Source: Aneurinibacillus soli
GTDB taxonomy: Bacteria > Bacillota > Bacilli > Aneurinibacillales > Aneurinibacillaceae
Assembly: GCF_002355375.1 (NCBI RefSeq)
Contig: NZ_AP017312.1
Location: forward strand, 2,435,001 to 2,499,000
Direction: 5' to 3'
Length of the DNA: 64,000 nucleotides
The position numbers and the translations under genes were made by a program. Under the pieces are notes generated by a model. That model was not told where the DNA came from, made no database searches, and was given only the letters and a program-made list of their open reading frames with translations. Shown one piece after another: positions 2,641-4,073 of the stretch (its first letter is position 1; each line of letters opens with the position of its first letter).

Positions 2641-2845
2641 CCGAAAATTGAGGTAAGTAGGACAAGAAAATGTAATTTTTCATCATATAATGGATAGATG
2701 TAGGAATCAACCGCGTTTTGACGAGATTAAATAGTATTCTCTCCCAAATCCTTCTCTTTTCTATAGCATAGATGATTGGAGAATGGATCTAACATTTCGT
2801 TATAATAATAAATAAGGCAGGAATAAACGAATGGGAGAGATTTGT

Positions 2846-3436
2846 ATGGCTCAACGTGTAGCCACTGAATACAAGAAGCTTGTTCTCGAACTGAGTACAC
2901 TGCAATTACAATCGTTTGTCGGAATGTTTGATCACGCGGAGTTCAGTACGCAAGTTCGCATCTTCGAGAATGGAGAAACGGAAGTTGTGCTGCTGGATAA
3001 AGGTATGGAGCTTCCGCTGTCGTTTAAGCGGATTGGTCATGATACGTATACATGCGAAGGTCAGTACAAGATTTACGATGCGAAGCTAGCCAACCAGATG
3101 CGGATGGCAGTTCGCAAATTTAAAGGATGCGGGATTGTCCACCGGCTGTATCCGACATATACGATGGTATATGAATATACAGGCGGTCATGTGATGAGAA
3201 TTATGGAACAAAAAGATGGACAGGAAAGGCTGGTTTTTGAATATAAAGATACGCTTGGTGATATGCAGCGTTTATTTGAAGCGTGCGGCGTAGAGGATCG
3301 GATTGATTGGACTAGGTTGCATATTGATCAGTTGTTAGATTTGCGTAATCAGCGCATTACGGATGGACTTTCAACAGAGGATGTTGACCACCAGCTGACA
3401 GAGCTGTCCCAACAGTTATTTATGATGGAAGCATAG
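2846..3436 (+). CDS. Conserved protein of unknown function
   Basis: A 196-residue soluble protein with no signal peptide or membrane segment; I do not recognise its family. The ATG at 2846 is preferred over an in-frame ATG at 2831 because GGGAGAG lies 6 nt before it. The protein has mixed alpha/beta character, and its C-terminal half is acidic and helical. A TATAAT box sits at 2801-2806. It lies between hom and speH but has its own apparent promoter, so no pathway can be inferred from position. Confidence 0.65.
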   Translation: MAQRVATEYKKLVLELSTLQLQSFVGMFDHAEFSTQVRIFENGETEVVLLDKGMELPLSFKRIGHDTYTCEGQYKIYDAKLANQMRMAVRKFKGCGIVHRLYPTYTMVYEYTGGHVMRIMEQKDGQERLVFEYKDTLGDMQRLFEACGVEDRIDWTRLHIDQLLDLRNQRITDGLSTEDVDHQLTELSQQLFMMEA

Positions 3437-3458: not shown

Positions 3459-3487
3459 TTGCAAAATATGTAGAATCATGGTATCTT
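3459..3487 (+). promoter_or_regulatory. Promoter of speH
   Basis: TTGCAA (3459-3464), a 17-nt spacer and TATCTT (3482-3487) form a plausible SigA promoter. The transcript would start near 3494 and carry a leader of about 118 nt containing the structured region at 3504-3606. Confidence 0.5.
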
Positions 3488-3503
3488 CATCATTGTGATT
3501 ACA

Positions 3504-3606
3504 TTAGGAACCAGGATTCACTCAAGGAAGTTTCTCCTCGATATATAGTGAATGACGTAGGTCCTAGCGAGAATGTATACAAATATATTTGCTAGGAGGG
3601 GGGACC
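3504..3606 (+). promoter_or_regulatory. Structured 5' leader with a sequestered ribosome site upstream of speH
   Basis: Two exclusive structures are visible. In one, TAGGAACC (3505-3512) pairs with GGTCCTA (3560-3566), enclosing a perfect 7-bp helix ATTCACT/AGTGAAT (3516-3522 with 3547-3553) and a small AGGA/TCCT hairpin. In the other, CCTAGC (3563-3568) pairs with GCTAGG (3591-3596), which overlaps the ribosome binding site at 3594-3603. The same segment is thus anti-Shine-Dalgarno or part of a 5' helix, as in translational riboswitches. The ligand is unknown; SAM, decarboxylated SAM or a polyamine would suit the gene. Confidence 0.5.
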
Positions 3607-3611
3607 GGAAG

Positions 3612-4013
3612 ATGGAATATTCTACTTTCGGAAGACATGTAGCGATTGATACTTGGGGTGTCGATTTTGAAAAATTAAACAGTGCTGAGTTTCTGCAGCG
3701 CCATATGGTGGAGGCAGCAGAAGCATGTGGTGCAACCGTGCTGTCCGTTCAGGCTCAGCAGTTTGAACCGCAGGGTGCAACGGTTCTGGTTATGTTGTCA
3801 GAGAGCCACATTTCGATCCATACATACCCGGAGAAAGGGTTTGCTGCACTTGACTGCTATACATGTGGCGAGACGGTTGATCCGGAACTTGCGATTGAGT
3901 ATATGGTGAACATTCTCCAGCCGGAGAAGATGTATGCTCGTAAACTTATTCGTGGTATGGGTGAAATGGACGTTGTACAATCTGACGTGATGAAGGTAAA
4001 ACAAAACGCGTAA
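3612..4013 (+). CDS. speH: S-adenosylmethionine decarboxylase proenzyme
   Basis: A 133-residue prokaryotic class 1B AdoMet decarboxylase supplying aminopropyl groups for spermidine. The self-cleavage site is seen as LSESHISIHTYPE; the Ser at about residue 65 would become the pyruvoyl group after cleavage between Glu and Ser. The Cys of the CYTCG motif is the expected proton donor. The ATG at 3612 is chosen because it follows a long purine ribosome site (AGGAGGGGGG) and because family members begin near this point. A perfect hairpin terminator follows at 4037. No spermidine synthase gene is adjacent. Confidence 0.94.
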   Translation: MEYSTFGRHVAIDTWGVDFEKLNSAEFLQRHMVEAAEACGATVLSVQAQQFEPQGATVLVMLSESHISIHTYPEKGFAALDCYTCGETVDPELAIEYMVNILQPEKMYARKLIRGMGEMDVVQSDVMKVKQNA

Positions 4014-4036
4014 TTGCGCATAGAAACGAATGAGTA

Positions 4037-4073
4037 AAATCCACTCTTTTACAAATGAAGAGTGGATTTTTCA
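4037..4073 (+). terminator. Terminator after speH
   Basis: A perfect 12-bp stem (4037-4048 with 4058-4069) with a 9-nt loop is followed by a T run. Confidence 0.85.

Follow-up and report, generated by a model that had tools for sequence, protein, structure and literature searches.

In translational riboswitches such as SAM-II, SAM-III/SMK, SAM-V and preQ1, the Shine-Dalgarno (SD) sequence is sequestered by pairing within a helix or pseudoknot that can switch. With respect to polyamine genes, the only validated spermidine riboswitch found in the literature is a variant of the four-stem SAM-I junction, a transcription-terminating OFF switch (Salvail et al. 2023, PMC10853860, according to its available text). 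The odc1 motif, named for the ornithine decarboxylase gene, is presented in the accessible portion of PMC8632094 as a proposed pseudoknot, described with an upstream ORF. For speD itself, the available part of PMC3574147 lists a 79-nt RNA between gapB and speD of B. subtilis, an Hfq-enriched peak labeled "unknown or speD leader region," and a table of PMC4448311, available in part, has an E. coli speD region entry. No bacterial speD leader switch besides the SAM-I variants was found in the open literature, including the main texts of PMC11109978, PMC8632094, PMC6429828, and PMC2864571; supplements lay outside this scope, and an unnoticed listing is possible.

The current study concerns the speD leader in a 64,000-nucleotide stretch of the 4.1-Mb genome of Aneurinibacillus soli, here called the window. 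As in the spermidine SAM-I variants, a leader RNA sits on polyamine genes including speD and a pathway compound is a plausible ligand, but by comparison with the available description (PMC10853860) the present leader is a linear P1-P2-P3 arrangement without a terminator and without a SAM-I match. Its SD lies in a switchable helix, as in SAM-II, SAM-III/SMK, SAM-V, and preQ1, from which it is set apart, through Rfam models only, by the lack of a match. Like the odc1 motif it precedes a polyamine biosynthesis gene, yet the downstream gene is speD in 208/208 loci and not ornithine decarboxylase (PMC8632094, in the portion available). This leader may be represented in B. subtilis by the RNA between gapB and speD (PMC3574147, as far as its available text allows), and an Anoxybacillus copy likewise adjoins a glyceraldehyde-3-phosphate dehydrogenase gene and speD.

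At the gathering score, the window leader matched none of the 4227 families of Rfam 15, in line with the sequence-only reading, an earlier interpretation of this DNA, which knew of no named riboswitch with such a layout for Firmicute speD/speH genes. A relaxed search (E up to 5) gave a single, chance-level match of the window leader to mt-tmRNA (E 1.4), and the leaders of 27 further loci (18 + 9) had no Rfam match inside the leader at E up to 1. The SAM-I model RF00162 did not match the leader, whereas the same scan detected a canonical SAM-I riboswitch at 1142-1255 of the window (90.7 bits). This element is followed by a terminator-like hairpin (1274-1297) and a homoserine dehydrogenase gene (1336-2640), and the organism thus already has a SAM-I aptamer. 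Judged from sequence comparison, we regard the speD leader as a probable cis-acting translational control RNA that most likely belongs to a so far undescribed class of metabolite riboswitches, with a probability of about 0.6.

Anatomy of the leader and its conservation in the genus

The downstream gene encodes a Bacillus-type S-adenosylmethionine decarboxylase, as had been proposed (141.9 bits against TIGR03330, E 9.3e-42, cut-off 75.65), and the terminator-like hairpin behind it suggests that it is transcribed alone. A 201-aa reading frame upstream of speD (2831-3436) has no NCBIfam match at E 0.001. Inspection of the window leader recovered every element named in the sequence-only reading (Table 1), including the helix ATTCACT/AGTGAAT and the small hairpin inside the first of two competing folds. 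The candidate promoter is weak by consensus (8/12 positions by our own count) and absent from the output of the promoter scan, the threshold of which was 9/12, but the remaining leaders of the same paralogue set (a-type, genus) have a similar block. Two elements had been overlooked, namely a second anti-SD tract in the P3 region and a hairpin around the start codon (P5).

Table 1. Elements of the speD leader and gene (window coordinates, all on the + strand)
Element	Position	Strand	Basis
Candidate promoter TTGCAA-17-TATCTT	3459..3487	+	Sequence; like block in other a-type leaders of the genus
P1 5' strand TAGGAACC / UAGGAACC, SD-like, anti-anti-SD	3505..3512	+	Sequence; alignment of 93 rows
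J1/2 5' side AGG, opposite GACGUA	3513..3515	+	Invariant in 14/14 genus leaders
P2 5' strand AUUCACU (DNA ATTCACT)	3516..3522	+	Covariation
P3 region: small hairpin and CUCCUC tract (second anti-SD)	3523..3546	+	Relatives' leaders
Small hairpin AGGA/UCCU (DNA AGGA/TCCT) in P3 region	3525-3528/3535-3538	+	Sequence
P2 3' strand AGUGAAU (DNA AGTGAAT)	3547..3553	+	Covariation
J1/2 3' side GACGUA	3554..3559	+	Invariant in 14/14 genus leaders
GGTCCTAGC / GGUCCUAGC: P1 3' strand or, alternatively, P4 5' strand (anti-SD)	3560..3568	+	Sequence; alignment of 93 rows; P4 arm test; forced folds
GCUAGGA, P4 3' strand overlapping the SD (GCTAGG 3591-3596)	3591..3597	+	P4 arm-swap energies
SD AGGAGGGGGG	3594..3603	+	GGGG <=40 nt before speD in 170/171 loci
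P5 hairpin CCGGAAG (3605-3611) / CUUUCGG (3625-3631) around the start codon	3605..3631	+	Arm-shuffle energies
speD, S-adenosylmethionine decarboxylase proenzyme, 133 aa, start ATG 3612	3612..4013	+	TIGR03330
Terminator-like hairpin 3' of speD	4036..4070	+	Pattern scan

Folded as a single sequence, the window leader gains no stability over shuffles (z -0.79), so the case for a leader RNA rests on comparison. Two speD genes were found by protein search in each of the 7 genomes of the genus, and the leader precedes all 14. P1 and the J1/2 loop are constant in these 14 leaders amid variable surrounding DNA, and so is P2 except for its innermost pair (U-A or U-G). The motifs AUUAGGAACCAGGAUUCACU (AAUAGG in one leader) and GUGAAUGACGUAGGUCCUAG are likewise present in 14/14, whereas P3 differs between the paralogue sets, with AAGGAAGUUUCUCCUCGA in one and AAAGGGUGGG...UCACUCGCCCCCGU in the other.

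Covariation and variants of the P1-P2-P3 domain

P1 pairs UAGGAACC with GGUCCUA, and the form UAGGAUCC/GAUCCUA occurs in other families. In more distant genomes, the P2 helix AUUCACU/AGUGAAU becomes AUCUACU/GGUAGAU, AUCCACU/GGUGGAU, or GACUACU/GGUAGUC, among others. The sequence-only reading had called for an alignment of relatives' leaders, and such comparison revealed compensating changes in P2 and, as described below, in P4. One alignment comprised 93 rows (87 distinct), which were drawn from 171 loci after removal of near-duplicates; 93.7% of its P1 cells are paired, 3/7 P1 pairs show double changes, and in total double changes affect 8/14 pairs compared with 2.4 in shuffles (reached in 0/500), a comparison biased in favor of the model because the rows had been fitted to its structure. 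A second set was formed by 67 unique cores of 56-58 bases that fit one pattern (from 201 loci), exclusive of the window's own copy, other P3 forms, and two copies with an insertion. Here, double changes were present in 4/7 P2 pairs, and the whole structure contained 84 double-change cells versus 24.9 in shuffles, a value reached by none of the 500. The covariation score was 0.260 as against 0.153 in shuffles (0/500) and 0.025-0.083 for slid structures; weaker measures were occasionally reached by shuffles, i.e., the number of pairs with a double change in 19/500 and the number of pair types in 4/500.

The P3 of the window is a reduced form of a larger P3 that many relatives have, UUAAAGGGUURGGACCUC-NNN-GGACUAACYUUCCCCCGU, which is nearly invariant in the 67 cores, including its unpaired loop bases. 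It can pair in two registers, one of which frees the CCCCC run while the other uses it, and is possibly itself a switch. Conservation of J1/2 does not extend to many Bacillaceae leaders; given this variability and the reduced P3 of the window, no single loop is universal. Two loci (L162, at 2501-2624, and L163) carry about 50 nt of extra GC-rich sequence in the apical loop of P3 with the rest of the core intact, and this loop therefore tolerates insertions. In the group with divergent SpeD proteins (43 leaders), a P1-like pairing was considered as well, and the energies of own and swapped partners were not separated (-14.75 versus -13.67, standard deviation 5.69). Many Bacillaceae loci (L182-L201) share the sequence TATACT...TCGTGAACTTCTT just after a -10-like box, upstream of the core; this sequence may serve as an operator, or else as the 5' partner of UUCAUG between the core and the SD.

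Distribution and association with speD

A covariance model built from the genus leaders only matched 11/11 genomes of the family, 15/15 of the order, and 137/398 of the class Bacilli; the pairings, the lack of which in close relatives would have spoken against the sequence-only reading, are thus retained there. A broadened model matched 263/398 Bacilli genomes in 109/145 genera, with its source loci, taken from the same class sample, matching by construction. TIGR03330 had matches in 292 of the 398 genomes, in 275 of them above the cut-off. The RNA is present in 262/275 genomes with a bona fide speD compared with 1/123 others (17 of which have SpeD matches below the cut-off), as counted from the match lists by eye and in agreement with the total (262 + 1 = 263). 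The single exception is genome G261, which has the RNA without a speD match. Conversely, 13 speD-positive genomes are devoid of the RNA. The nine top-scoring TIGR03330 matches listed all belong to such genomes (G028, G316, G090, G289, G307, G167, G132, G253, and G370), a pattern suggestive of a distinct SpeD lineage that is controlled differently; the further genomes without the RNA are G038, G070, G334, and G379.

The association holds equally at the level of the locus. A speD homologue lies downstream in 193/193 loci retrieved by the RNA model or by pattern (L015-L207; together with L208 these are 181 distinct places), and the leader landmark is located 77-165 bases upstream of the SpeD start in 208/208 loci examined. 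In 49/208 loci, SpeD is only 38.5-44.4% identical to that of the window, while identity in the other group ranges from 57.6 to 100%. Among named genomes, the exact-core pattern occurs on 22 contigs (12 Cohnella, 6 Aneurinibacillus, 2 Paenibacillus, 1 Longirhabdus, and 1 Paenibacillaceae MAG). A phylum-wide search with a model of the b-type core matched 6/329 genomes, all of them Bacilli, with the non-Bacilli share of the 329 not specified and with reduced copies missed by this model (genome G040 matches the broadened model and not this one). Absence outside the Bacilli is therefore only indicated.

Viral contigs gave 0 matches to one b-type core pattern, and phage records none to one Bacillaceae leader used as the query. 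The same query had five matches in plasmid records, of which four had E values of 4e-3 to 0.6 and one was strong (Anoxybacillus, E 2e-33, before speD). The latter is located on a record of Anoxybacillus amylolyticus (NZ_CP015439.1 58709-64836), where the RNA lies between the glyceraldehyde-3-phosphate dehydrogenase gene and speD in the gene order polA, mutM, coaE, gap, speD, a cytosolic protein gene, nrdR, a replication gene, and dnaI. This "plasmid" of 258 kb, which carries polA, mutM, coaE, gap, speD, nrdR, and dnaI together, could represent a chromid or could have arisen by misassembly.

Predicted competition for the ribosome site

Downstream of the core, UCCUAGC after P1 pairs with GCUAGGA of the SD region to form P4. 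GGUCCUA is common to P1 and P4, and the two helices are therefore mutually exclusive. The pairings by which anti-anti-SD and SD would compete for one strand, as claimed in the sequence-only reading, are present in the window and strongly conserved. The P4 layout fits 151/201 loci, and across 83 usable unique segments pairing is stronger between an arm and its own partner than after swapping (-12.23 versus -9.89 kcal/mol). Among the replaced arms are GGAUGAAAU/AUUUUAUUC, GAACAAU/AUUGUUUG, and GAAAAAU/AUUUUUCG. In the inspected leaders of the group with SpeD identity below 50%, P4 is not evident. The isolated P1-P2-P3 segment folds into the form proposed earlier in 14/14 genus leaders, whereas with the SD included the lowest-energy fold has P4 in 12/14 and P1 in only 2/14. 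For the window copy, predicted energies of the SD-free and SD-hidden states are -34.8 and -35.5 kcal/mol, a difference of 0.7. Forcing P1 or P4 in the 121 of 201 loci that fit the layout favored P4, and hence the hidden SD, by a mean of 2.8 kcal/mol (standard deviation 2.4, range -3.5 to 10.2); in 4/121 leaders, a forced fold fell below the unforced minimum, probably because T letters in the unforced calculation cost it loop bonuses, and the forced values are unaffected.

An SD-complementary pyrimidine tract, the second anti-SD, was found in 200/201 leaders (CCCC-type in 139/200, CUCCUC in the window), a count that lends support and not proof, because the search picks the most C-rich run and finds some run in many leaders. 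Tract and SD hardly vary, so there is little covariation in their pairing: in a test of co-change, CUCC-type tracts paired slightly better with their own SD (-9.61 versus -8.34), while CCCC-type tracts showed no gain (-11.5 versus -11.7). The predicted probability of tract:SD pairing varies with the stretch chosen for folding and rises or falls considerably with longer stretches, in a calculation restricted to nested folds, to which pseudoknots are invisible. It is 0.94-1.0 in L130 and L134, 0.26 in the window copy, and near 0 in L154; in L042 it is 0.59-0.75 without the P1 strand and about 0.04 with it, and in L184 and L188 it increases from 0.01-0.06 in a short stretch to 0.82-0.89 in a longer one. 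For L130 and L134, the predicted fold combines CCCCC:GGGGG, P4, and P5 in one closed ribosome site. P5 (CCGAAAG/CUUUCGG around the start codon) forms where SpeD identity is at least 55% (-11.62 versus -6.95 kcal/mol with a shuffled upstream arm, n=105 unique), swapped coding arms being uninformative (-11.62 versus -11.38), and is weak in the group below 50% (-7.08 versus -5.98 shuffled and -5.96 swapped). The leader of L122 (G103:C1:3437526-3440684, from about 601) retains P1 and P2, but its downstream part now reads AUUCUCUUU...AAGAGAGGAGAAU. There, a new sequence appears to pair with a new SD, which looks like a reconstruction of the SD-hiding helix.

As had been noted from the sequence, no T run follows the P4 hairpin of the window, and a pattern scan found no terminator between 3459 and 3612. 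This lack and the competition of P1 with P4 support control at the level of translation. Two features expected of a translational riboswitch are seen, namely a conserved structured leader before a metabolic gene and two exclusive folds, one of which is predicted to hide the SD; the proposed order of anti-anti-SD, anti-SD, and SD as a translational switch is thus supported on comparative grounds. Once RNA polymerase has left the promoter, the first part to fold would be the P1-P2-P3 domain, and the emerging SD would either stay free or capture anti-SD strands, i.e., UCCUA from P1 and the tract from J2/3. The position of the second anti-SD is between P2 and P3, with the start codon inside P5. 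In the SD-free state, P1 would be formed and P4 absent; in the SD-hidden state, P4, the tract:SD pairing, and P5 would together close the ribosome site. The most economical answer to what sets the balance would be a pathway metabolite.

Possible signals and rival explanations

Sequence comparison indicates that the control RNA before speD is real, widespread, and apparently undescribed, and that it is riboswitch-like in those features that sequences can test. The helices, the strand shared by P1 and P4, and the exclusive association with speD are established by this comparison, while a small molecule that shifts the balance of the folds is what we infer from them. Our tentative first choice of ligand is a pathway product, spermidine or another polyamine, which would close the switch via the tract:SD contact; this fits end-product control and the validated precedent (PMC10853860, as far as its available text goes). 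SAM, dcSAM, or MTA would be a distinctly less probable signal, and some other compound is a little more doubtful still. With respect to the sign of the response, we lean slightly toward an OFF switch. An ON switch that responds to a substrate (SAM, putrescine) follows closely in likelihood, because the SD is freed by P1, the very helix that closes the domain.

Two helices that compete for one strand are typical of riboswitches, and this competition argues against the unlikely alternative that a protein, SpeD or another RNA-binding regulator, binds the leader and represses or activates translation, with no small molecule in direct contact with the RNA. The tie of the RNA to one gene would be expected of autogenous control, a conserved hairpin with a nearly invariant loop would also suit a protein, and Hfq enrichment was listed for the B. 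subtilis "unknown or speD leader region" (available part of PMC3574147). Binding by SpeD itself is less likely, since the core is nearly the same before both SpeD groups, a poor fit with simple self-binding. Less probable again is a structured RNA that lacks a specific pocket and reacts to its general surroundings, such as temperature or the effect of polyamine or Mg2+ levels on the stability of helices. Such a response could draw on the near-equal energy of the two states, the GC-rich tract:SD contact, the hiding of the SD by several helices, and the general binding of polyamines to RNA (PMC10853860, in its available portion), but the nearly invariant unpaired bases of the P3 core and the occurrence in 109/145 genera exceed the needs of a melting switch.

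We give very little credence to the view that promoter, spacer, and ribosome-site functions alone account for the conservation of the leader and that its pairings lack a regulatory role. The unexceptional folding energy of the single sequence would agree with it, while the compensating changes in P2 and P4 and the retention of P1 and P2 by same-genome paralogues despite their differing P3 regions speak against it. The gene speF is under polyamine control via a leader-peptide or upstream-ORF mechanism. For a comparable mechanism here, as in speF or odc1, the window copy offers a mini-ORF, AUG-ACG-UAG, across P2 and J1/2 (3552-3560); in other lineages it is absent or has lost its stop (GACGCAG, GAACAAGCAG), and this explanation is equally hard to credit. 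No conserved upstream ORF was noticed in the leaders inspected by eye.

A metabolite riboswitch is thus the preferred reading, and we would give an even chance to its fuller form: a riboswitch class across most spermidine-making Bacilli that senses a polyamine, decarboxylated SAM, or another compound of the pathway, with a fold unlike SAM-I and with SD-like aptamer strands (UAGGA, AAAGGG) that compete with the SD for two anti-SD tracts. Through SpeD, SAM becomes committed to the synthesis of spermidine, and no explanation was found in the literature for how Bacillus-like bacteria set the level of this enzyme. If the proposal is true, the leader RNA would be the standard control of SpeD in these bacteria. 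The presence of the RNA in so many of the sampled Bacilli genera and its tie to a single gene make the question directly testable, and it could be a sensor of polyamines or dcSAM with a far broader distribution than that of the rare SAM-I variants.
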